The notes under the pieces were generated by a model that searched no databases, was not told the origin of the DNA, and saw only the letters and a list, made by a program, of their open reading frames with translations. Of a stretch of DNA of 38,541 nucleotides, positions 5,612-38,452 are shown one piece after another. Numbering within the stretch: the first letter of the stretch is position 1; each line of letters begins with the position of its first letter. Location of the stretch: NCBI GenBank assembly GCA_022448485.1, contig JAKUUI010000017.1:1-38541 (forward strand), in the 5' to 3' direction. The DNA is from SAR324 cluster bacterium. GTDB lineage: Bacteria > SAR324 > NAC60-12. A program made the translations under genes and the position numbers.

Positions 5612-5989
5612 ATGTCAAACAATTTACTGAAGCAGCTTGAAGAGAAAATCAACGCAGCGGTTGAGACAATCGAATTGTCACGTATGGAAATTACTGATCT
5701 GAAAGAACAGAATGATGAGTTGCAAAATCGGTACGTAGATTGGGAAGAGAGGCTATCGGCTTTAATTGAAAAATTCGAACAGTTGGAAGAAGGAGAAGCT
5801 GTTGAGATAGAAGCAGAGGCAGAAGCAACAATTCAGAAAGTCGAAGAAGAGTCTGAAGAAGTTCAAGCTGAGGAAGTTGAAGCTGAAGAAGTTAAAGCTG
5901 AGGAAGAAGATGATACAGAAGGCCCCATTTTTGGAACTAGTGCAGATTCATATACTGAAGCTCCAGGATCCGCACAACACTACGCATGA
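5612..5989 (+). CDS. Small coiled-coil protein with acidic tail (ZapB-like architecture)
   Basis: A 125-residue protein whose first 65 or so residues form one long predicted coiled coil (heptads of L, I and V with many E, K and Q), followed by a Glu/Val/Ala-rich repetitive tail (EEVEAEEV-type repeats) and a short unstructured end. An AAGGA ribosome binding site lies about 8 bases before the ATG. The coiled-coil half resembles short FtsZ-ring-associated proteins such as ZapB in size and character, but coiled coils match many families, so this is a weak inference. Its stop overlaps the first possible start of the next gene (ATGA at 5986-5989), suggesting translational coupling with the TPR protein. 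Confidence 0.75.
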   Translation: MSNNLLKQLEEKINAAVETIELSRMEITDLKEQNDELQNRYVDWEERLSALIEKFEQLEEGEAVEIEAEAEATIQKVEEESEEVQAEEVEAEEVKAEEEDDTEGPIFGTSADSYTEAPGSAQHYA

Positions 5990-14859: not shown

Positions 14860-17595
14860 TTACTCCGCAACTTTTTCTGCTTGATCAGAAAGTTCAGGAA
14901 TCCCCATATCTTCCAGCACTTGATCGGTCACCTTGTTAAGTTCTTTTGCTTTTTTGTAACGGGAACTGGCACGCTGGTTAACTTTTTCCAAATCTTTTAG
15001 TGTCCGAATGATGGTTGGTCTAATAAAAATAAGCAGGTTAATTTTCTCAAATTGATCCAATCTACTGCGAAACAACCAGCCAATCAAAGGTAGATCTCCA
15101 AATCCCGGAATCTTATCTTGATTGCGTGCAATTTTTTCTTTGATCAAACCACCCAGAACAATAATCTCACCATCCTCTGCAATCACAGATGTTTTAATGG
15201 TTCTCTTGAAAATCGTAACTGCTTCAGCACCAGGATTGACCACATCACTGGATTCCTGGGCAATATCGAGTCGGATACTGCTTTCTCCACTAATTTGCGG
15301 TTTAATTTCAAGTTTGATACCAACTTCCTTGAATTGATATTCTTTTGTGGAAATGTTAGTAGCGCTTGTAACAGTTTTTGGTGACACAGGAACAACGGAA
15401 ACAACGTTAATATTCGGCACTTCTCCCTCTTGGGGATTGTTGAGAATCATCAACTGAGGGTTTGCAAGGACATTCACATCATTATTGTTTTGAACTGCTT
15501 TAACAAATGCTCCGAAACTGAAAAATTCTTTTCCTCCAATGCTGATTGTGTTGCCATTCAAGACTCCTATTGAAGAACTATCGGCAGTTATTGCTGCAGT
15601 TCCTCCTGTGGTTGCATCCCCTGTGAAAGCTCCTCCACCGGGAAAACCGCCTGTTATCACTCGGCCTGTTCTTGTTGCACCGGCAGCTTTCCAGTTAATA
15701 CCTAAATCCAAACTTTTTGAAAGCGAAACCTCCATCACAAGTGCCTCCACATAGACTTGCATTCTAGGCACATCAAGCTCGATAATAATCTGGTCCAAAG
15801 TTGTGAAGGCGTCTGCCGGAGCAAAAACCAAGAGAGAATTTGTAGCCTCATCAGCGCTGATTGAAATATCAGATTGTGTTCCTGAGCCTGCTGTTTTGGC
15901 CTGTTCCGTTGCTTCCGGTTTTGGTTGTTCATCTTTCCTGGCAACTTCAGTAATTCTTCCAGTAACTTCTTTGAGCAGAACAGCCATGTCTTTTGCTACC
16001 GCATGTTTGAGATGATAAAGCTTAAAATTACTTTTAATTTTTCCACTTTCCTGGAATACATCCAACTTTTTGACCAATGATAAAATTCTTTCGATTTCAA
16101 GTCGTCCCGCAATGATGATCAGGGCATTCAGCCTTTCCTCTTCAATGATTCTAACCGGGCTTGCTTTTGCAGTTTTGCCTTCACCTTTTCCAGCAACAAC
16201 ACTATCCGAAAATATTTTTGTCAACAGGTTAGCCATCCTTTTTGCAGAAGTATTCTCCAGCGGTATCAACTTGAGCTGTGTTTCTCCAGAAGTTCCTTGT
16301 TCTGTGTCAAGTTTTGAGATTAGCTGGAGAACTCTGTCGGTTGCCAAACGATCCGCAATGATGATCAGGGCATTCAGTCGAGGCTCTGCGATTATTTTGA
16401 CCGGACTCCCGGTTGCGGTTTTACCCTCACCTTTTCCGGCAACCACCTTATCTGCAAATATTTTGGAGAGCAGCGGTGCCAATGTTGTGGCGGCAGCGTA
16501 TTGCAATTGGTGCAGTTTTATTTGTCGGTTCCCTCTAGGAATATCAAGTTGATCTACGAGGTCGATAATTTGCTGAGATGTTGTTGGATTTGCAATAATA
16601 ATCAGTGCATTAAAAGGGGCAAAAGGAACAATTTTGATAGATGCTGTTTTTGGAAAAACAGTCGTTATTAGAGGTACCAGCTTAGCGGCATCAGAATATT
16701 GCAGTTCATGAATTGTTGTTTTAGCACCTTCTACCGGTACGTCAACCTGTTCAATTAATTCAATTATGTCATCAGTGGTTTCACGATTTGCAACGATAAA
16801 CAGTGAATTTAAACGAGACTCAATTAAGAGTTTGAATTTAGTAGGCTTCCCTTTTCGTACCAAGTTGGAAAACAATTCTGAAACGGTTTTGTGAATTTCA
16901 GTTACATCGTTATGTACTATTTGCTGCAAAGTGACAATTTGTTCCACTCCTTTTGGTGCAGATGTGTCCAGCATATTTATCAATTCAATTATACGGCTCA
17001 CGTTGGACTCAACATCGATTACGATCAACATATTCATCGGCTCGTAAACGAGCAGCGCTCCTGTCTTGGAAAAAATGGGCAGCAATGTTGACTGAATCCC
17101 TTTGAGGTCTGCGTGGCGAATTGGGATCAGACGCATGACATAGTTCCCGCCTTTGGCTTTGATTTTTCCTCTATCTCGTGAAATCGGCAAGTGCTGGAAG
17201 CGTGCATCTGCAGCAGGAAGAATTTCTACGACCTTACTTCCTTTTTTACGCACCATAGCCAATCCCTGGCTGGCAAGTATTTTTTCAAAGAAGAAAAATG
17301 CGTCCTCCGGAGTTACTTTGAAATTACGCGGAGCTGTGATTGACATTTGTCCGCGCATATTTTTTTCCTCATAAACAAAAACCGTTCCAGTGTTTTCCGA
17401 AATTATTTTGATAAATTCTTTGAGGATCAGAGTTTGAGGCAGGTTGATTGTAACCTTCGAGCGGCTTGTCTTTTTTGCTCCTTCCAGTTCTACAGGTTGA
17501 GAAAGATGAAACAGAAAGAAGCTCAGTAAAAACAATCCGGACAACCAGCGATTTTTACGGAGCCGCTTAAATAGGTTGGAGGTATGGAAAATCAT
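14860..17595 (-). CDS. gspD: Type II secretion system secretin GspD, enlarged (911 aa)
   Basis: Forms the outer-membrane channel of the type II secretion system. Signal peptide about 1-40, N0 domain about 47-125, then six N1-like (KH-fold) modules at 152-210, 218-285, 293-351, 357-430, 439-512 and 524-608, and the secretin barrel at about 610-870 (VEALVMEVSLSKSLDLGINW, NVLANPQLMILNN, VGIKLEIKPQI, IVLGGLIKEK, GDLPLIGWLFRS). Typical GspD has N0 plus three such modules and about 650-750 residues, so this one is extended. Modules four and five share the exact string VVAGKGEGKTA, which points to internal duplication. Module six has a Pro/Lys/Glu/Ala-rich insert at 553-575. The last 45 residues form a basic/acidic helix that could be the pilotin-binding region. 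It lies between ispD (27 bp upstream) and scpA (20 bp downstream) rather than in a gsp operon. Confidence 0.94.
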   Translation of the reverse strand: MIFHTSNLFKRLRKNRWLSGLFLLSFFLFHLSQPVELEGAKKTSRSKVTINLPQTLILKEFIKIISENTGTVFVYEEKNMRGQMSITAPRNFKVTPEDAFFFFEKILASQGLAMVRKKGSKVVEILPAADARFQHLPISRDRGKIKAKGGNYVMRLIPIRHADLKGIQSTLLPIFSKTGALLVYEPMNMLIVIDVESNVSRIIELINMLDTSAPKGVEQIVTLQQIVHNDVTEIHKTVSELFSNLVRKGKPTKFKLLIESRLNSLFIVANRETTDDIIELIEQVDVPVEGAKTTIHELQYSDAAKLVPLITTVFPKTASIKIVPFAPFNALIIIANPTTSQQIIDLVDQLDIPRGNRQIKLHQLQYAAATTLAPLLSKIFADKVVAGKGEGKTATGSPVKIIAEPRLNALIIIADRLATDRVLQLISKLDTEQGTSGETQLKLIPLENTSAKRMANLLTKIFSDSVVAGKGEGKTAKASPVRIIEEERLNALIIIAGRLEIERILSLVKKLDVFQESGKIKSNFKLYHLKHAVAKDMAVLLKEVTGRITEVARKDEQPKPEATEQAKTAGSGTQSDISISADEATNSLLVFAPADAFTTLDQIIIELDVPRMQVYVEALVMEVSLSKSLDLGINWKAAGATRTGRVITGGFPGGGAFTGDATTGGTAAITADSSSIGVLNGNTISIGGKEFFSFGAFVKAVQNNNDVNVLANPQLMILNNPQEGEVPNINVVSVVPVSPKTVTSATNISTKEYQFKEVGIKLEIKPQISGESSIRLDIAQESSDVVNPGAEAVTIFKRTIKTSVIAEDGEIIVLGGLIKEKIARNQDKIPGFGDLPLIGWLFRSRLDQFEKINLLIFIRPTIIRTLKDLEKVNQRASSRYKKAKELNKVTDQVLEDMGIPELSDQAEKVAE
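16060..16527 (-). repeat. Duplicated N-module within gspD
   Basis: Codons 357-430 and 439-512 encode two consecutive modules of the same length. They share VVAGKGEGKTA exactly, followed by SPV(K/R)II and RLNALIIIA. The DNA has diverged at many third positions, so the duplication is not very recent. Confidence 0.75.
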
Positions 17596-23757: not shown

Positions 23758-24192
23758 ATGAAGCGTTTTCGTCTGGAAACAGCTTTAAAAGTCCGGGAGC
23801 GACTTGAAAAACTCTACCAGAAAGCACTTGCGGAACAGGTGCAGTTGGAACAGCAGTACCGTGACAGAAAACAATTGATGCAGGATGCTTTAAACAATTA
23901 TAACAATGAATTAGATGAAGCGAAAGCACATGATGTGACAATTAACCAGTTGTTAATGGGGGGGCAGTTTCAGCAAAGAATAGAACAGCAATTGGAACTC
24001 ACGCAAGATCAACTGAACGAGCAACTGGAAGTTGTGGAACTGAAACGTCATGAACTGACCCAAGCAACCCAAAAGAAACGTGTGCTGGAGATTCTTAAGG
24101 AAAAAGAAATTAAAAAATTTAGAGATGAAACGGAACGTTTGGAACGTTTAGAGGCGGATGAAATTGCCCAGAATTATCTAAGGCATTCTTAA
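23758..24192 (+). CDS. fliJ: Flagellar export protein FliJ
   Basis: 144 residues, almost entirely coiled coil, starting KRFRLETALKVRERLEKLY, the conserved FliJ N-terminus. FliJ links the export ATPase FliI to the FlhA gate and helps select substrates; it belongs to the cytoplasmic part of the flagellar export apparatus. Position immediately before MotE-like, fliK, flgD and flgE genes confirms the call. A Shine-Dalgarno is not evident; a possible flagellar promoter lies upstream. fliI and fliH are not in view. Confidence 0.88.
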   Translation: MKRFRLETALKVRERLEKLYQKALAEQVQLEQQYRDRKQLMQDALNNYNNELDEAKAHDVTINQLLMGGQFQQRIEQQLELTQDQLNEQLEVVELKRHELTQATQKKRVLEILKEKEIKKFRDETERLERLEADEIAQNYLRHS

Positions 24193-24869: not shown

Positions 24870-26834
24870 ATGATGGAATCAATAGGTCAAAAAGCAGTCC
24901 TTCCGACTACGGATGAGGTAATTGTTGCAGGTGAATTGGATGTGGATTCCGGAGAAACCGGGGAAGAAAGAATGTTTGATGCTGCCTTGGAAGAAATTAT
25001 AGCAGAACATCCTCTCGATGAAAGTTCGCTTGGGGAATTCCTTGAAGAGGACGATTTGAATGCTTCACTGGCTTCAGCCATTTTTACTCAAAATCAAGTT
25101 GACCCGGAAGTTGTCAAAGAAAATTTTGGTGAAATAGATTATGCAGCCATTCCCTCTGAAATTATGAAGGACAATCTTTGGGACGAAGATTCTCTTTCAG
25201 TTCAGTCACAAGTTTTGAAAAAATCAACAACTGTAGCACAAGAAATGATTGAGGTGCTTGATCCCAGAGTTATCACGGAAGAAAGCAATTTTCAGAATCT
25301 ACCAGTTAAGGGTGTGGCCGAAACGGGGCTCCAATCTTTTTTACAGGGGCCTGCTCAGGAAAATCAGGAAACATTGCTGCAGACAGTATTTCATAGGGTA
25401 AAGCCTACGGAAGTTGATTCTGATTTTACAGGAGATGATCTGCAGACTGTCTTACAGAAAAATACTAGCTTGCCTGTTGAGCTAGAAGGAGATGCTGAAT
25501 TTTCAACAGATGATTTACAAACTGTCCTGCAAAAAAATACTGGCCAACCAGTTCACGTCCAGGAAAGAAATTCGGTTGTACAGGATCTTAAACCGATTCA
25601 GGAGAACCAGGAAGGACGTCCTCGAAAGGAACCGCAAACTGTATTCCCTCAAGGATTACAAGAGAATGCGCAAGAGACTGAAAAACCAGTAGAAGAGAAT
25701 TTAGTAAAAATTGAACCTGAAGAAGTACTGCGGACCGAAGAAAAGCTTAAAGCAAAGGAAAGTTTTCAAGTTGTAGACAGAATTAAAATGACCGAAGCCT
25801 TGGCATCCAAAGCAGCAGAAGAAATTGAAGGTGGAGTAAAAATAAAAACTGCTGACGTCTCACAGGCCACAGAGAAGATCAAAGCAGCAGAAGGGATTGA
25901 GAGTGGAGTAAAGGCAAAAGCAGGCTTCCAAATGACTGGTGTTGAGAATTCGAGAGATATTTCTGGAAAGGAAACCATTCTGCCTGTGGAAAATCTTAAA
26001 GCAGCGGCGAGTCAGCAAATTGTAGACAGAATTAAAATGACCGAAGCCTTGGCATCCAAAGCAGCAGAAGAAATTGAAGGTGGAGTAAAAATAAAAACTG
26101 CTGACGTCTCACAGGCCACAGAGAAGATCAAAGCAGCAGAAGGGATTGAAGGTGGAGTAAAAGCAAAAGCAGGCTTCCAAATGACGGGTGTTGAGAATTC
26201 GAGAGATATTTCTGAAAAGGTATCCACACAGCCTTTGAATCAGTTCAGGAAACTGGCATCTAAAGAAACTCAACTTTCCAGCAATGCCAAATCTACCGTA
26301 GACTTGGTATCTCCCCAGGGAATTAATGCTGTTTCAGAGCTTTCCGGCACCTCGATTATCAAACCAGGTGAAGCCGCCAGTACTGTAACCGAAACAGTGC
26401 GTGGCGCCGACCTTCCGTTTGACATGGATCAGGTGGTGAATCGAGTAAGGATATTGCGCGGCAACGGCGTTGAAGAAATGACGCTTCGTTTGCATCCGGA
26501 GGAATTGGGGCACATTACTTTGAAAGTCCGGCAATCCGGCGGGGGTCTCTCGATAGATATGCGTGTTGACAATCCACTGGCAAAACAAATGGTAGAATCC
26601 GGATTTGATTCTCTCCGTAGCAGATTTTTGGATCAGGAATTTTCTTATCAGGATTTAGCTCTAAACGTTGATATTAACGAACGTGATTCCCAATATAGCG
26701 GTGACCGTGAACATTTTGAATTTGAAGAAGAAATGTTTTCTTCAAAGAGAGGGAAAAAAGAAGAAATATCATCATTGGAAGAAACACCACATGTGAGGCA
26801 CAGGACCGATTCTGGCCTCAATCTATACGTCTGA
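24870..26834 (+). CDS. fliK: Flagellar hook-length control protein FliK
   Basis: FliK is the secreted ruler that stops hook growth and switches export specificity. 654 residues: a long, acidic, low-complexity N-terminal part with repeats, then the conserved C-terminal domain at about 525-605 (RVRILRGNGVEEMTLRLHPEELG, ITLKVRQSGGGLSIDMRV, SGFDSLRSRFLDQ). A basic/acidic tail ends at 654. The ruler part carries two nearly identical 66-residue blocks 83 residues apart (DNA repeat 25771-26219) and two shorter LQTVLQKNT units 25 residues apart. Length variation of such repeats would change hook length if the ruler model applies. The start is the first of two consecutive Met codons, 7 bp after the previous stop. 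Confidence 0.9.
   Translation: MMESIGQKAVLPTTDEVIVAGELDVDSGETGEERMFDAALEEIIAEHPLDESSLGEFLEEDDLNASLASAIFTQNQVDPEVVKENFGEIDYAAIPSEIMKDNLWDEDSLSVQSQVLKKSTTVAQEMIEVLDPRVITEESNFQNLPVKGVAETGLQSFLQGPAQENQETLLQTVFHRVKPTEVDSDFTGDDLQTVLQKNTSLPVELEGDAEFSTDDLQTVLQKNTGQPVHVQERNSVVQDLKPIQENQEGRPRKEPQTVFPQGLQENAQETEKPVEENLVKIEPEEVLRTEEKLKAKESFQVVDRIKMTEALASKAAEEIEGGVKIKTADVSQATEKIKAAEGIESGVKAKAGFQMTGVENSRDISGKETILPVENLKAAASQQIVDRIKMTEALASKAAEEIEGGVKIKTADVSQATEKIKAAEGIEGGVKAKAGFQMTGVENSRDISEKVSTQPLNQFRKLASKETQLSSNAKSTVDLVSPQGINAVSELSGTSIIKPGEAASTVTETVRGADLPFDMDQVVNRVRILRGNGVEEMTLRLHPEELGHITLKVRQSGGGLSIDMRVDNPLAKQMVESGFDSLRSRFLDQEFSYQDLALNVDINERDSQYSGDREHFEFEEEMFSSKRGKKEEISSLEETPHVRHRTDSGLNLYV
25434..25541 (+). 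repeat. Short diverged direct repeat in fliK (33 bp, two copies)
   Basis: 25434-25466 and 25509-25541 encode DDLQTVLQKNT twice at a 75-bp period. Third positions differ, so this duplication is older than the 200-bp one downstream. Confidence 0.65.
25771..26219 (+). repeat. Near-identical 200-bp in-frame direct repeat in fliK
   Basis: 25771-25970 and 26020-26219 are about 200 bp each, at a period of 249 bp (83 codons), with only a handful of mismatches. Both encode VDRIKMTEALASKAAEE through GVENSRDIS. The near identity at third positions points to a recent duplication or ongoing gene conversion. Confidence 0.9.
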
Positions 26835-26847
26835 AAAAAGGTAAACT

Positions 26848-27627
26848 ATGAATACCGGAAACAACGTTGAACAGGCACTGCAAGTCAGTGCGACAAGCTT
26901 GCGCAACCGTGCTTCAAAAAGTAGTAATGACGGCAAAGAACTGGGGAAACAAGATTTCCTGAATTTGCTGATGACTCAAATGTCTAATCAGGATCCTCTT
27001 GATCCAATGGATTCAGCGGGCATGATGCAGCAATTGGCTTCGATGGGTACGGTGGAACAACTACAGAACCTCAATAGTCAGACAGCTAAAATGATGGCAA
27101 TTCAGCAGCACATCGCCAAGGCTACCGCCGGCAGTTTGTTGGATAAAGATGTGGAAGTTGGCGCAAGAAAGATTCCTTTGAAAAACGGAGATACTATTCC
27201 GGTCACTTATAAGTTGGACGGAAGTGCCGACCGGGTAATGCTCCTTGTACATGATTCCACTGGAGAAATGATACGTGAGGTCAACCTTGAAAGCAGAGCA
27301 CAGGGCGTTCATGAATTTTCCTGGGATGGGCGTGACAATGACGGAGATGTATTGCCGGACGGAAATTATAGCTTCAACGTGTTTGCAAGAACTGATGGAG
27401 GTGAAGAGATTGGTGTTACACTGACGAAATCCGGACAAGTATCTATGGTTCGATTTGATGGTAGTGACTCTCTGTTGAAAATCAATGGCGAGTGGGTTCC
27501 TGCTAATGAAATGGTTGGTTTAGGTAATAAATCAAAATTGCGGTATCAAGATGCAGTGCCTCTTCCAGCACGAACAGAACTGATGACCCGAAAAAATCCT
27601 GTCTGGAGTTCCAGAAGTTCTGATTAA
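26848..27627 (+). CDS. flgD: Flagellar hook assembly scaffolding protein FlgD
   Basis: The hook cap that guides FlgE polymerisation and is later discarded. 259 residues. The N-terminal signature KQDFLNLLMTQMSNQDPLDPMD with MQQLASMGTVEQLQNLN (residues 31-75) is unmistakable. The C-terminal half has the tudor-like and fibronectin-like domains, including the FlgD signature around EFSWDGRDNDGDVLPDGNYSF. An AAGG lies before the ATG. It follows fliK by 13 bp and precedes flgE by 130 bp. Confidence 0.96.
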   Translation: MNTGNNVEQALQVSATSLRNRASKSSNDGKELGKQDFLNLLMTQMSNQDPLDPMDSAGMMQQLASMGTVEQLQNLNSQTAKMMAIQQHIAKATAGSLLDKDVEVGARKIPLKNGDTIPVTYKLDGSADRVMLLVHDSTGEMIREVNLESRAQGVHEFSWDGRDNDGDVLPDGNYSFNVFARTDGGEEIGVTLTKSGQVSMVRFDGSDSLLKINGEWVPANEMVGLGNKSKLRYQDAVPLPARTELMTRKNPVWSSRSSD

Positions 27628-27757: not shown

Positions 27758-29242
27758 ATGGCGTTACTAGGATCATTGAATACTGGAGCCAGCGGGGTAA
27801 AAACCCATGGCAAATCCATGCAGATTATTGGTAATAACATTGCCAACGTCAATACCTTTGGTTACAAAAGCAACGATGTTGCTTTTGAAGACTTAATGGG
27901 AAATTCATGGCCACAAGGTTCAGCAGTTACAAAGGCCAGTAATGGTGTATCAATTGGTGGAGTGGAAATGGACTCTTCACAGGGTGCATTTGAAAACACG
28001 TCCATTAGCACGGATATGGCAATTGCCGGCGGTGGTTTTTTTACTATAGTTAATCCTGTTACTGGCACAGAGGTATACACTCGTAATGGAGAGTTTTCAT
28101 ATAATAAAGAAGGTTATCTTACTACCCTGCGTGGAGGGCTTGTGCAGGCTTTGCAAGTGGATCGACTTACCAATGAGAGCAAAGGAATTCCAGGATCGCT
28201 TAAAGTTTTAGGTCTTGTTGATGCTCCTCAACCAACAGGGACCGGACAAAGAGGAACCGGTATTAAGATTGCCGCAAACCTTGATGCGAATGCAACCGTC
28301 AAAGATATCCCTGTGGATCCAAGCAATGTACTGGACAGCATGTACAATTTTGCGACATCAACCACTGTTTATGATGCACTGGGTAACTCTCACGCTGCAA
28401 CAATTGCCATGAGAAAACGGCCGGACCTTCCGGAACAAATTGATCCTGCTACTGGTCAACCAATCGCGGGAACTGGTGTCAGCAATCAGTGGGAATACTA
28501 TTTGATGTTTGATGGAGCTTCTTTGGGACAGGTCCCGGGAGTAATGATCGCAGTCGGCGGTGGATTCATGCAGTTTACTGATGATGGGAAATTAATTGCC
28601 ACGACAGGTGGTTCTTTTGAAGCACAGCCTGGAGGAGTTGGGCCGGATGGTCAGCCTTTGCCTGCCGGACCACCTCGATTAATTCCACAGCCTGTGGATC
28701 CTGACACAGGAGTTCCACAATTTGCTGTTTCTTTCGGTGGTGGGACTCCGATAGTTCTTGGAGTGCATCTCGGAGAGGGTTATAATCCTGATGATCCCAG
28801 AGATCCTAGAACAGGGTTGGATGGTATTACTCAGTTTGCAGGGCATTACAATGTGATTCGAACCAGTGCAGACGGCAACCCTTCTGGAAATTTGGAGAGT
28901 ATTTACTTGCAAGACAATGGAACTGTGAACGGAGTGTTTGATGCCGGATACACTCGTGCGATTGGCAGAATCGTTTTGACAAAATTTGACAATCCTGGGA
29001 AACTTGCTCAAGTCGGTGATAATATGCTTGTTGAAACCTTAGGTTCCGGGAAGAAAGTGACAGGTGAGGCTGGTACTGCAGGGCTGGGAGAAATTCGCAG
29101 TCAAAGTCTGGAGCAGTCAAACGTTGATCTCTCTGAGGAATTTGTCAATATGGTTGAGACGCAACGTGCCTTTCAAGCAAGTGCTAAAACAGTGACTACT
29201 TCTGATGAGATGATTCAAGACCTGATCAACATGAAGCGGTAA
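27758..29242 (+). CDS. flgE: Flagellar hook protein FlgE
   Basis: The structural subunit of the hook, 494 residues. The N-terminal rod/hook signature SLNTGASGVKTHGKSMQIIG then NNIANVNTFGYKS (10-45), the FlgE/F/G central domain with GGGFFTIVNPVTG and YTRNGEFSYNKEGYL, and the C-terminal helix SNVDLSEEFVNMVETQRAFQ through MIQDLINMKR are all present. A Pro/Gly-rich variable region at about 225-345 is the surface-exposed D2-type domain. A strong AAGGAG lies before the ATG, as expected for an abundant product. The 130-bp upstream gap could hold its own promoter, but no sigma-28 or sigma-54 site is clear. A strong terminator at 29254 ends the cluster. Confidence 0.96.
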   Translation: MALLGSLNTGASGVKTHGKSMQIIGNNIANVNTFGYKSNDVAFEDLMGNSWPQGSAVTKASNGVSIGGVEMDSSQGAFENTSISTDMAIAGGGFFTIVNPVTGTEVYTRNGEFSYNKEGYLTTLRGGLVQALQVDRLTNESKGIPGSLKVLGLVDAPQPTGTGQRGTGIKIAANLDANATVKDIPVDPSNVLDSMYNFATSTTVYDALGNSHAATIAMRKRPDLPEQIDPATGQPIAGTGVSNQWEYYLMFDGASLGQVPGVMIAVGGGFMQFTDDGKLIATTGGSFEAQPGGVGPDGQPLPAGPPRLIPQPVDPDTGVPQFAVSFGGGTPIVLGVHLGEGYNPDDPRDPRTGLDGITQFAGHYNVIRTSADGNPSGNLESIYLQDNGTVNGVFDAGYTRAIGRIVLTKFDNPGKLAQVGDNMLVETLGSGKKVTGEAGTAGLGEIRSQSLEQSNVDLSEEFVNMVETQRAFQASAKTVTTSDEMIQDLINMKR

Positions 29243-32914: not shown

Positions 32915-33904
32915 ATGTCCAAACTTAACGAAATGATTCGCGAATTCCGTGAAGACATTGGCCAGAGTATTGAAGGTTTGGCGTTGCTGATGCAGATGGA
33001 GCCGGATGAATTTGCTCAGCTGGAGGAAGATTGGATTCCTCCGGATGACATTCTTCAGCGGCTTTGTGCGCTCTTTGAATGGAATTATCGGGACATCAAA
33101 CGGCTTGCAGACAAAACTCCATCTGTTAAACTCGGACAAAATTATCCGGAAAAACCTGAATCTTCTTTAACAGAGGAAACTCCATCTAAAATCAGCGTAC
33201 CTCCTTTTGCCAGAATGATTCGGGAAGCCCGCATCAAAGCCAAGCAGGATGCACGGGGAATAGCTACCTTACTAGGCGTGTCTCCGGATTATTATGAAGA
33301 GTTGGAAGCAGATCTCATTCCTCCTGATGACTTGCTGCGTAAATTATGCTCCCTGTTTGGTTGGAACTACAAACAAATACAACAAAAAATCAGCAGACAA
33401 AGTACAGTTCTGTATGGCACACGGCAGCCTCCACTAACTGCCAGTGAAATTCAGGCACGACTTCCGAAGATTGAACTGCCGGAAATAACGGATATTCCTG
33501 CACCAGTTTCTCTGCACGAGCAAATTCAGCAGGCGAGAATTAGAGCAGATCAGAATGTGGAGGGGATTTCCCTTTTGCTGCAAGTCAACCCTAAATATTA
33601 TGAGCAGATTGAAGCCGGAGATGTGATACCGGATCAGGATTTACTGAAACGCATTTCTTCTCTCTTCGGCTGGAATTATCATGAAATGCTGCATCGTGAA
33701 AAAAGCTCACAATATGGGCAACTGCAGCCTGCGGTTACCTCTCTGGATTCAGCGGACTCCTCAAAAACTGAAATAAAACTCAGGGAAGTCCAGGAGAAAA
33801 TTGCAGAAAACTGGCGGGAAATTACCCGAGAAAGACAGGAAACTCTGCTGACACAATTGGAATTGATCAGTGAAATGATGGAACGTTGGAAGAACGAGGA
33901 CTAG
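32915..33904 (+). CDS. Protein with three tandem helix-turn-helix (XRE-like) repeats and a coiled-coil tail
   Basis: 329 residues. Three related domains, each about 58 residues, lie at 7-64, 101-158 and 204-261. Each has the form (M/Q)IxxAR or FREDI, then a GIxxLL helix, (P)xxYYEx(L/I)E, a PPDDLLxxL turn and a SLFGWNYxxI end. This is the layout of HTH_3/XRE DNA-binding domains (turn between helices 2 and 3, then LFGWNY). They are linked by Pro- and Ser-rich spacers of 35-45 residues. A final helix (270-329) is a charged coiled coil (EIKLREVQEKIAENWREITRERQE). No enzyme or ligand-binding domain is present. It could be a multivalent DNA-binding regulator; the repeats may also be non-DNA-binding. 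It follows the methyltransferase by 48 bp. Confidence 0.8.
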   Translation: MSKLNEMIREFREDIGQSIEGLALLMQMEPDEFAQLEEDWIPPDDILQRLCALFEWNYRDIKRLADKTPSVKLGQNYPEKPESSLTEETPSKISVPPFARMIREARIKAKQDARGIATLLGVSPDYYEELEADLIPPDDLLRKLCSLFGWNYKQIQQKISRQSTVLYGTRQPPLTASEIQARLPKIELPEITDIPAPVSLHEQIQQARIRADQNVEGISLLLQVNPKYYEQIEAGDVIPDQDLLKRISSLFGWNYHEMLHREKSSQYGQLQPAVTSLDSADSSKTEIKLREVQEKIAENWREITRERQETLLTQLELISEMMERWKNED

Positions 33905-34465
33905 AGTATTTTGATTCGAAATAGAAAAGTAGTGCAGAAACACTCGTCAGCTTATACGACCATGTGCGGTGTGTGAAGTAGTGATTAGTAGATTAAATTG
34001 ATGTATTTGTTTAACCTGAGTACACCCTCCAAGATGGTCGGGGATGTGGTACCATTGCCAAAGCTACCTTTCCATTTTTTCTTTTTATGATTTTGTCCAC
34101 TGCATTGCTGACCATTTTTCCAGAAATTACATTCTATTTTTCTGGCTTGAAAATGAAGTGGTCTCCTCTTTAATTTTGACAATGTCACATTAAAAAAATT
34201 TATACATGATTACAGGATAAACAAGATTTTTGTCTGCTTTTGCTGGCCGTTCATTCGCTTATTTGTCCAGTCTATCCTGTAATACTGCCAAAAAAATTGA
34301 AAGTGATATTATTAAATAGTAATCCCTTTATTCTCGGGTCTCTGCCAGATCGAGTAGTTCTGACTTTAAGAATAGCACCGAAAAAATTTGGGGGTATTCC
34401 TAATCTAAATTTGCATTGCACAACCCACTCAATGTGGTATGGGTTCCTATTTTCTGGCTGATCGC
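33905..34465. other. Intergenic region with an inverted repeat
   Basis: A 561-bp gap. Short open frames on both strands (for example 33985-34188 and 34272-34493, minus) lack a ribosome binding site and recognisable motifs. The perfect 11-bp inverted repeat at 34209-34283 is the main structure, with a smaller 7-bp hairpin at 34120-34145. The promoter of the oxoprolinase gene should be here, but none is clear. Confidence 0.5.
34209..34283. repeat. Inverted-repeat element ending ATTACAGGATA
   Basis: ATTACAGGATA at 34209-34219 is mirrored by TATCCTGTAAT at 34273-34283, enclosing about 53 bp. The inner flanks also partly match. Such ATTACAGGAT/ATCCTGTAAT ends are common in interspersed intergenic repeats of many bacterial genomes, so this may be a degenerate member of a small non-coding repeat family. 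Confidence 0.6.
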
Positions 34466-37400
34466 ATGACTCCCCTTTCTTTTCGTTTTTCAATCGACCG
34501 TGGAGGCACCTTCACAGATGTTTATGCGGAAGTTCCCGGTGAACCCGGTTTCCAGGTGGTGAAATTACTTTCCGAAGATCCACAAAATTATCCTGATGCG
34601 CCGCGCGAAGGCATTCGCCGTATACTCGAATCAGTTACCGGGCAATCCTTTCCTAAGGCAAGTTTTTCTGCAGAAAATATTGAGTGGATTCGCATGGGAA
34701 CCACCGTGGCGACTAACGCGCTTTTAGAACGCAAAGGTGCAAGAACTTTACTGATTACGACGAAGGGATTTCGAGATTTGCTGCAAATTGGGAATCAGAG
34801 CCGACCCAAAATTTTTGATCTGGAAATCCGGAAACTCGACTTACTTTATGAAAAAGTGATTGAAGTTGATGAGCGTGTGCGGATCTTCAAGGATTCATGG
34901 GACAGGAAACGGGTTTCAGAGGGTAGGGATCAGGTTTCAGGTTTTGACATTGTAGAAGGAACGACTGGAGAAAAATTCGAAGTTTTGGCAAAGCCGGATT
35001 TGGATACAGTACACCAGCAGCTTGCAGCAGTTTTTAAACAAGGAGTTCGGGCTGTGGCAGTAGTGTTTTTACACGCTTACGCATTCCCGGAACATGAACT
35101 GCAAATCGGTGAAATTGCCCGTGAAATTGGATTTGAGCAAATTTCACTTTCGCATCAAGTTATGCCGATGGTTAAAATGGTGGCGCGCGGTGATACGACG
35201 ACTGTGGATGCGTACCTCACTCCTCACATACGCAATTATCTGAGTAGTTTCCGCTCCGGATTTTCAGATAATTTGGCAAACTCACAACTGCTGTTCATGC
35301 AGTCCGACGGCGGTTTGATCGATTCAGGAAATTTTAAGGGCAGCAATGCTATTTTGTCCGGACCCGCCGGAGGTGTGGTTGGTTACGCCATGACTACTTC
35401 AATTTCGACACAAAACACGGAAATTAAGAATTCCAGCCAAGCACCGGCAAGCACCGGCAAGCAACTACCAGTTATTGGTTTTGACATGGGCGGTACCTCG
35501 ACAGATGTTTCACGTTACGGTGACGATTACGAACTTGTTCATGAAACAGAAACTGCCGGAGTGCGTATCCAGGCTCCGCAAATGCACATCAAAACCGTGG
35601 CCGCCGGAGGAGGTTCACGACTGTTTTTTCGCAACGGATTATTCGAGGTTGGTCCGGAATCTGCCGGAGCCCATCCTGGTCCGGTTTGCTACCGCAAAGG
35701 TGGACATCTGGCAGTAACTGACGCAAATTTGGTGCTGGGTCGTCTGCATCCGGAATACTTTCCAAAAATTTTTGGACCGAACGAAAACGAAGCCCTTGAT
35801 GTCGAAGCCTCTCGTGTCGCTTTTCAAAAATTAACTGCTGAAATCAATGACTATTCTAAAAAACGACAGCTTCCGGCAGAAATGACTTTGGAAGAAGTTG
35901 CTCTTGGGTTTTTGCGCGTTGCTAACGAAGTTATGGTACGCCCCATCCGTGAAATTTCGGTGATGCGCGGTTTCGATATTAAGGAACATGCTTTAGCTTG
36001 TTTCGGAGGTGCCGGCGGTCAACACGCATGTGCGATTGCCCGAGAATTGGGCATTTCGAAAATATTCATCCACCGTTTTGCCGGTATCCTTTCGGCTTAC
36101 GGCATGGGCCTCGCAGACATTGTAGTTGAGAAACAGGAACCTTCTGCACAGGCGTTGCCGGAAAGCAAACAGAACAATGTACTCAAAAATCTCTTAATCA
36201 ATCTGGATACTTTAGCGCAGGAAGCAAAAAAAGAATTGATTAACCAAGGACATAAAGCTGAGCAGATCGAAATAAAGCCTTATCTCAATTTGCGTTATCA
36301 GGGAACAGACACGGCTTTGATGATTCCAGAACCAGAGTCAATGGTGAAATACGAATTGGGAATTACGAATTGTGGGCTTGGCATTTTCGAATCAAGTCCG
36401 GAATTGCAGTCGAACGTTGAACAATTACCGGACTATGTAGATGCATTCCGGGAAACGTACCGCAGGGAATTTGGCTTTGATTTGACGGGGCGGGAGATCA
36501 TTGTTGATGATTTGCGTGTAAGAGCGGTGGCAAAGTCTCCAGGATTGCAAAAATTTCCGCTGGCACAAAAATCCAAGACTCCGAAAGTTGAAGGTCAGAC
36601 CCGTTGTTATTTCATGGCCGAAAGTTCTGATGTCTGCAGCTGGCATGAAACTCCGATTTATCACTTGGAAAAACTGGGTGCCGGACAGCGTTTACAAGGA
36701 CCGGCGATAGTGATGCAGGATACGTCAACTATCCTTGTTGAACCAGGATGTTACGCAGAAATTACGGAATTAGGTGACGTGGTTTTGACAGTTGAAACCA
36801 AAACCTATCGTGAAATAGGTACTCAAGCCGATCCAGTGCAAATTTCTATTTTTGGCAATCTATTCATGTCGATTGCCGAGCAAATGGGGCGCACTCTGCA
36901 GCGCACCGCTATTTCCACCAACATCAAAGAACGTCTTGATTTTTCCTGTGCCATTTTTGATGAAACGGGAGGCTTGGTGGCTAACGCGCCGCATCAACCG
37001 GTGCATCTGGGAGCAATGAGCGAAGCTGTTAGACAACAGGTAAAACTTCAAGGAAAAAATCTTCGGGAAGGTGATGTTTTACTGACGAACCATCCGATTG
37101 CCGGTGGAAGTCATCTTCCGGACATTACCATCATTACTCCAGTTTGGGCTGGAAAACCCAGTGCCAAAAAAGAAAAACCGATTTTTTACATCGCCAGTCG
37201 AGGTCATCATGCTGATATTGGAGGAATTTCTCCGGGGTCGATGCCGCCCTTTTCCCGTAAACTCGAAGAGGAAGGTGTGTGCATCAAAACTTTTAAGCTG
37301 GTGGAAAACGGCATTTTCAATGAAGACGGAATAATCGATTTGCTCCAAGCTCCCGGTAAAATCAAACGTGCTCCCGGAGAAACTGCAATTAGTGGAACCC

Positions 37401-38452
37401 GTTTGCTTTCAGATAATCTTTCTGACCTTAAAGCGCAAGTTGCAGCCAATCAGCGTGGAATCGATTTGCTACTGGAAATGGTGCAGTATTATTCGCTGCA
37501 AGTCGTGCAAGCTTACATGCACCATATTCAAACCAATGCTGAAGAGGCTGTGCGGAATATGCTCAAAGCGCTTTCTGAACGGAAAGGTTTGGCCGAACCA
37601 GAAGCTCCGGTGCAGCAGTACACAGTCGAATCCATGGATTATCTTGATGACGGCAGTGAGATTGTTCTGCATCTTACTATTGATAAACGATTAGGTAGTG
37701 CGATTTTTGACTTTTCCGGAACCGGCCCTGAACTTTGGGGCAATCTTAATGCTCCGAGAGCGGTGACACATTCAGCGATTTTGTACTGTTTGCGCTGTTT
37801 GATAGGTCAGGAAATCCCTCTTAATCAAGGCTGTTTAAATCCAATTGAGGTGATTATAGAAGAAGGTTCCTTGCTTGCTCCATCGGAAAATGCAGCAGTA
37901 GTCGGCGGTAATGTTCTGACTTCTCAGCGCATCACTGATGTTATTCTCAAAGCATTTCGGGCCTGTGCTGCTTCGCAGGGATGCATGAATAATTTTACCT
38001 TTGGCAATGAGAATTTCGGCTATTACGAAACAATCGGAGGAGGTGCTGGGGCTGGTCCGGATTGGCACGGACAGTCTGGAGTTCACACTCACATGACAAA
38101 TACCCGCATCACTGATCCGGAAATACTGGAAAGACGCTATCCAGTGATGTTGCGTGAATTTTCCATCCGAAAAAATTCAGGTGGCTCAGGAAAATTCAGG
38201 GGTGGAGACGGACTTGTTCGTGAAGTCGAATTTCTGGAACCGCTCAATACGGCCATACTTTCAGAGCGTAGGGTTCACCAGCCTTATGGACTTAACGGTG
38301 GAGAGTCCGGAAAAAGTGGAATGAACCTCTTCATTCGTAAAGATGGTACCAAGGTTCATCTAGGTGGAAAAAACGAAATTCGTGCTGAACCGGGCGAGCG
38401 TATCCGCATAGAAACCCCAGGTGGAGGCGGATATGGTAAAGTAAATTCTTGA
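34466..38452 (+). CDS. 5-oxoprolinase (ATP-hydrolysing), fused HyuA-HyuB type
   Basis: Hydrolyses 5-oxoproline (pyroglutamate) to glutamate with ATP; related hydantoinases act on N-acyl hydantoins. 1328 residues from the ATG at 34466 (an ATG at 34439 adds nine). The HyuA half begins [17 protein letters not shown], and has [59 protein letters not shown] and [17 protein letters not shown]. The HyuB half starts around residue 795 ([20 protein letters not shown]) and has [67 protein letters not shown] and the Gly-rich end PGGGGYGK. Fusion in this order is typical of eukaryotic-like OPLAH and some bacterial enzymes. Two inserts are odd: a 10-bp tandem repeat near 35439 and a repeat-derived stretch near 36346. 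It ends exactly where the convergent gene's stop begins. Confidence 0.94.
35439..35465 (+). repeat. 10-bp tandem repeat inside oxoprolinase
   Basis: AAGCACCGGC occurs twice in tandem, followed by AAGCAA, in a Ser/Pro/Ala-rich loop between two conserved blocks. The unit length is not a multiple of three. Confidence 0.75.
36346..36376 (+). repeat. Repeat-like insertion inside oxoprolinase
   Basis: Two similar units, AATACGAATTGGG and AATTACGAATTGTGGG, lie in the coding sequence and encode [12 protein letters not shown] in a poorly conserved loop. This AATTACGAATT motif (NYELRITNYELRI-type peptides) is familiar as an interspersed repeat in diverse bacteria, which suggests insertion of a small element that kept the frame. 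Confidence 0.5.

Follow-up and report, generated by a model that had tools for sequence, protein, structure and literature searches.

Recurrent in-frame tandem repeats in the middle of the flagellar hook-length gene fliK of a SAR324 bacterium and its genus

The stretch of DNA analysed here (38,541 nucleotides, referred to as the window) makes up the whole of contig C79 in a 2.70-Mb draft genome, which comprises 246 contigs and is 86.9% complete. Among its genes is fliK, encoding the flagellar hook-length control protein, which sits among hook genes recognised by Pfam, with flgD and flgE directly downstream and a fliJ-like gene upstream. The features of interest are as follows:

23758..24192, + strand: fliJ-like gene, upstream of fliK (Pfam FliJ, E 6.6e-10)
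24870..26834, + strand: fliK, flagellar hook-length control protein, 654 residues (open reading frame, translation, Pfam Flg_hook)
24870..25334, + strand: conserved N-terminal part of FliK, to the AETGLQ motif
25410..25553, + strand: older 75-bp repeat with LQTVLQKNT units, 74% identical
25740..25988, + strand: 249-bp tandem unit, copy 1, 83 codons
25771..25900, + strand: exact 130-bp run, recurring at 26020-26149
25812..25924, + strand: two older sub-repeats within the unit, 72 bp apart, KAAEEIEGGVKIK / KAAEGIESGVKAK, in copy 1
25989..26237, + strand: 249-bp tandem unit, copy 2, 83 codons
26409..26831, + strand: conserved C-terminal part of FliK, DLPFD to the last codon, 141 residues, holding the Flg_hook match
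26848..27627, + strand: flgD, hook cap protein (Pfam FlgD, FlgD_ig)
27758..29242, + strand: flgE, hook protein (Pfam Flg_bb_rod, LlgE_F_G_D1, FlgE_D2, Flg_bbr_C)

That the gene is fliK, as the original prediction had it, is borne out by the Flg_hook family (PF02120), which matches residues 529-600 with an E-value of 7.1e-16 and 58.2 bits against a cut-off of 29.8, and by the position of flgD and flgE. A second methionine is a possible start, from which the protein would have 653 residues. Identity as YscP was considered and rejected, since the protein scores 18.7 bits (E 0.0015) against a curated NCBIfam cut-off of 76.5 (TIGR02514). No solved structure matches FliK by sequence at E 0.01, and no Rfam family reaches its threshold anywhere in the window. 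A structure prediction of the whole protein made with nine sequences of the genus begins both copies with a helix (residues 288-319 and 374-404); with a mean pLDDT of 37.2 and a pTM of 0.17, the model does not allow the helicity of the units to be judged.

Other parts of the window have features of their own. A short tandem repeat with a period of 15 bp lies at 5853-5921 within an open reading frame at 5612-5989. The gene at 32915-33904 encodes a protein with three similar segments that by reading are helix-turn-helix-like, with matches to Pfam HTH families, and its internal offset of 282 bp is present in three relatives too. A hydantoinase is encoded at 34439-38452, and a second, partial copy is found in the same genome (handle G000) at G000:C34:2890-4158. 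This copy, 90% identical over query residues 915-1337, is either an incomplete paralogue or a fragment that reached the bin from a different strain.

The duplication in fliK lies between the conserved end parts of the protein. A direct-repeat search returns the full 249-bp units with a spacing of 249 and an identity of 92%, and the TRF call spans 25767-26220 with a period of 249, 1.8 copies and 97% matches. As originally predicted, two 200-bp blocks within the units (25771-25970 and 26020-26219) are nearly identical: they match at 195 of 200 positions (97.5%). Of the five mismatches, four fall in a 195-bp core (25771-25965), where three are synonymous (GAG/GAA, AAG/AAA and ACT/ACG) and only one is not (AGT/GGT); the fifth, GGA/GAA at 25966, is outside the core. 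As 249 is three times 83, the reading frame is kept across the duplication, which upholds the claim that it is in frame. The observed copies match at 60 of 60 bases, whereas 100 codon shuffles of this gene's own middle gave no more than 37 of 60 at any of the offsets tried, and a chance origin of the duplication is therefore excluded. In a DNA search of the draft genome, the duplicated block matches these two sites only.

Older layers of repetition are also evident in the FliK middle. The upstream LQTVLQKNT duplication that had been predicted was recovered as a pair at 25410-25478 and 25485-25553, with a spacing of 75 bp and 74% identity, and LQ-rich units related to it can be read in several members of the genus. 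The two sub-repeats inside the unit match at 41 of 60 bases at an offset of 72, as seen in copy 2.

In named genomes, FlgE has matches at 14 loci, of which 11 are close (83-87% identity). The fliK gene was then compared across the genus. The sample contains 17 genomes including the one analysed, with one genome per species, and the variation it reveals is variation between species. Some fliK sequence was present in 15 of them; the two where none was found, G002 and G008, are 57% and 51% complete, respectively. Repeats were scored as the number of matching bases out of 60 at a given offset, with a threshold of at least 46 and with matches spanning N gaps excluded. Counting whole and partial genes alike, 11 of the 15 genomes have a fliK tandem repeat by this measure:

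G000 fliK: periods of 249 and 75 bp
G001 fliK: periods of 183 and 132 bp
G005 fliK: periods of 60, 183 and 132 bp
G007 fliK: period of 18 bp
G010 fliK: period of 75 bp
G011 fliK: period of 33 bp
G012 fliK: periods of 93 and 72 bp
G013 fliK: period of 72 bp
G014 fliK: period of 72 bp
G015 fliK: period of 252 bp
G016 fliK: period of 72 bp

In-frame repeats that differ between related genomes are thus found in fliK of this genus. The periods, accompanied in the offset scan by their multiples and sums, differ among lineages and are nearly always multiples of three, and by reading their positions vary within the FliK middle. Offsets that are not multiples of three either span N gaps (155 in G003, 65 and 158 in G012) or belong to G005 (182 and 617), where the frame is broken. 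The outcome named as speaking against the original prediction was that the relatives would all share one fixed copy number and have diverged copies; the relatives differ instead. When codon shuffling was applied to six fliK genes, five far exceeded the null (54-60 observed, at most 40 in shuffles). The exception was G004, whose middle scores 32 where its shuffles reach up to 36. It is one of four genomes out of 15 with no strong fliK repeat of their own in the scan at 46 of 60 or better, and its N-terminal part contains a weak repeat of 27 bp (44 of 60). Of the other three, G003 has a sole match that spans an N gap, while G006 and G009 have partial genes with no repeat at this threshold.

The fliK of G005 (L035 4783-7081) is split into two open frames of 295 and 415 codons, and this break is either an assembly error or the mark of a decaying gene. 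In addition, about 20 consecutive residues in its C-terminal part do not resemble the aligned relatives. An inversion was considered for this stretch and rejected, as its reverse complement gives a poorer alignment than the sequence as read.

Five genes of the genus are intact, with no cut and a single open frame (G000, G004, G010, G013 and G016). The C-terminal part has 141 residues in all five, and the N-terminal part up to AETGLQ has 154-163 residues in four; the motif was not found in G010. The middle ranges from 218 to about 498 residues, the upper value being an estimate that assumes 150 residues for the N-terminal part of G010. The change in length is therefore nearly confined to the middle. 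This is as expected if the middle is a ruler flanked by an export part and a switch domain, roles that we assign by analogy with available portions of the Salmonella work (PMC6972891). Overall, FliK of the five intact genes has 522-789 residues, compared with 412-593 residues, measured from stop to stop, in other genera of the phylum (n = 28, with G027 omitted for an open frame running far upstream). FliK thus tends to be longer in this genus, and G004, the shortest of its intact proteins, falls within the range of the other genera.

Strong repeats of this kind are rare in the other genes sampled from the genus and absent from the FliK genes scored in other genera. Among 126 other open reading frames of the genus, from nine loci, only one reached the threshold, a secretin at 47, and the next best scored 43. 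This secretin, at 14863-17595 on the minus strand of the window, has six stretches matching Pfam Secretin_N and an internal direct repeat (16084-16250 and 16330-16496, spacing 246 bp, 71% identity). GspD usually has three N domains, and the secretin of the window has more. It is nearly whole and in one piece in 11 of the 13 other genus genomes that match it, at 84-88% identity, and hence looks fixed. In other genera, a FliK match was obtained in 33 of the 35 genomes searched, and 29 were scored, with G025, G029, G040 and G042 left out. None of the 29 reached 46 of 60, the best being 42 in G047. These genes were scored in two sets (15 genes with a best of 36, and 27 genes with a best of 42) that together cover 29 distinct genomes, and in the larger set those of G027 and G030 were cut at the 5' side.

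The poor conservation of the FliK middle, in both sequence and length, would also be expected from neutral drift. Here, the middle would be a lax linker in which duplications accumulate as its length hardly matters; hook length may change, only without consequence. However, general laxity of the middle does not explain why repeats of comparable strength should be restricted to this genus and missing from the 29 FliK genes of other genera in the phylum. The Salmonella data, as far as the accessible text of PMC6126814 goes, also argue against it: soft-agar motility is highest near the wild-type FliK length and is reduced at 363 residues or fewer and at 520 residues or more. Neutral drift is compatible with the explanation we prefer, and we regard it as a serious contender that falls somewhat short of even odds.

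The relatives also allow the duplication to be placed in time. Its unit is 66 bp longer than the 183-bp counterpart in G001 and G005, with which it is homologous and in phase. Between G000 and these two genomes the units are 68-74% identical, whereas the copies within G000 are 92% alike over the 249 bp and 97.5% alike over the blocks. The doubling, or a homogenisation, therefore postdates the split of these species, and the predicted recency stands. The second unit of G005 holds several copies of a 60-bp piece, and the G001 contig ends at the point where this array starts in G005. The homologous phase would also fit one older duplication, common to G000, G001 and G005 and homogenised in each genome by gene conversion. 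In agreement with this, at the differing sites in the second sub-repeat (25901, 25902 and 25913) copy 2 carries the letters of the first sub-repeat, which is what a short conversion tract would leave. We find such a single ancestral event possible but doubtful. The repeated segments are different ones elsewhere in the genus (252 bp in G015, 33 bp in G011 and 18 bp in G007), which calls for more than a single event in any case.

With all of these genes coming from assemblies, the copy number itself has to be questioned. A contig end or an N gap cuts fliK in nine of 15 genomes (G001, G003, G006, G007, G009, G011, G012, G014 and G015). In G001, G014 and G015 the contig breaks off in repeated sequence, and in G003 and G012 an identical 55-mer flanks the N gap on both sides; in G006, G007, G009 and G011, the contig-end sequence is not repeated. 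For control genes, contig ends cut FlgE in one of 12 cases, an aldehyde dehydrogenase in none of 12, the secretin in one of 14 and the hydantoinase (matches of at least 81% identity) in three of 13. Pooled, the controls are cut in five of 51 cases against nine of 15 for fliK, a per-kb ratio of 7.7 (binomial p 2.5e-4), where the control copies share genomes and come from the same window, control cuts are contig ends with N gaps not read, and internal stops and frame breaks in control genes (G010, G013) do not count as cuts. When G011, whose contig starts near codon 44 of fliK and outside the repeats, is removed, p becomes 8.7e-4. Measured against the assembly-wide density of contig ends, the excess is weaker: the seven contig-end cases compare with 4.1 expected if every end is counted (p 0.07) and with 2.3 expected if each break is counted once (p 0.0025). 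We take this excess as supporting rather than decisive.

As the window is a draft contig and short-read assembly may mishandle the 130 bp of exact identity, the two copies may represent a collapse of more, and with fliK so often cut, its copy number is uncertain in all drafts, the window included. FliK length should accordingly be treated as unreliable in draft genomes of this genus. At the extreme, the second copy would be an artefact, arising where reads or two strains had been wrongly joined, with the true number being one or some other. A draft of 246 contigs, fliK genes cut in nine of 15 assemblies, and three contig ends and both N gaps lying on repeats would all suit such an error. However, the copies differ at five of 200 positions, their flanks are distinct and the frame is kept, and other assemblies, G010 among them, show different repeats of their own. 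An artefact is therefore very unlikely in our estimation, and the assembled copy number could still be wrong. A different origin of the breaks would follow if fliK were a hypervariable repeat locus, its copy number changing so frequently that one population carries several lengths of ruler and hence of hook as a heritable tuning of hook mechanics. On that view the breaks would stem from genuine mixtures of strains as well as from repeats exceeding the assembler's word. We consider this improbable.

Taken together, we favour a recent in-frame duplication of 83 codons in the FliK middle as one event in a genus-wide gain and loss of repeats that leaves the ends near-constant, and give this reading a probability of about 0.7. 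As for the route, we infer that older units, being related in sequence, would recombine unequally or slip against one another to produce new tandem copies, and that only in-frame products would be retained, since the protein needs its C-terminal switch domain. With every residue gained the ruler would lengthen, and the hook would grow longer before the export switch. The premise behind this, already part of the original prediction, is that FliK length sets hook length, and it matches the published Salmonella work in the portions available (PMC6126814, PMC6972891). There, FliK proteins of 363-785 residues gave hooks of 42-135 nm, with 0.2 nm per inserted residue (PMC6126814). On this slope, the 83-residue unit suggests about 17 nm of hook, and the range of 267 residues among the intact FliK proteins of the genus would, by extrapolation, translate into a span of about 53 nm. 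If the slope holds, hooks of about 78 to 132 nm are predicted, and the genus would offer a natural test of the ruler rule and of why hook length is tuned. The published FliK length series behind the rule is, in the parts available, an engineered one (PMC6126814).

Several known systems resemble the one described here. Salmonella FliK (405 residues, engineered from 310 to 785; PMC6126814, PMC6972891) is alike in having an N-terminal part, a middle and a C-terminal switch domain. According to the available portions of these reports, the length of its middle sets hook length. FliK of the window has 654 residues with natural tandem repeats in the middle, whereas the Salmonella variants were engineered. 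Among the matches listed from the open-licence literature, titles and the starts of abstracts do not describe natural FliK repeats, which is not proof of their absence. The repeats in the accessible part of PMC10936197 are those of an engineered FlgE linker, and no natural FliK repeats were found in that of PMC1084347. Periscope proteins, as presented in the accessible text of PMC8201768, provide another parallel, with gene-length variation that changes physical reach, as proposed here; those are surface proteins that project a ligand-binding domain, unlike the secreted internal ruler considered here. The closest likeness in kind is YscP of Yersinia enterocolitica, the ruler of the type III needle, whose length varies naturally through repeated motifs of 14, 25 and 46 residues that differ in number between strains (PMC3469391, available part). 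Natural repeat variation in a type III ruler is thus already known. YscP measures an injectisome needle and varies within a species, in contrast to the flagellar hook and the between-species variation described here. What the present analysis adds is a flagellar counterpart of the YscP variation, recurrent across one genus, and it is this genus-wide turnover of fliK repeats that is the finding worth keeping.
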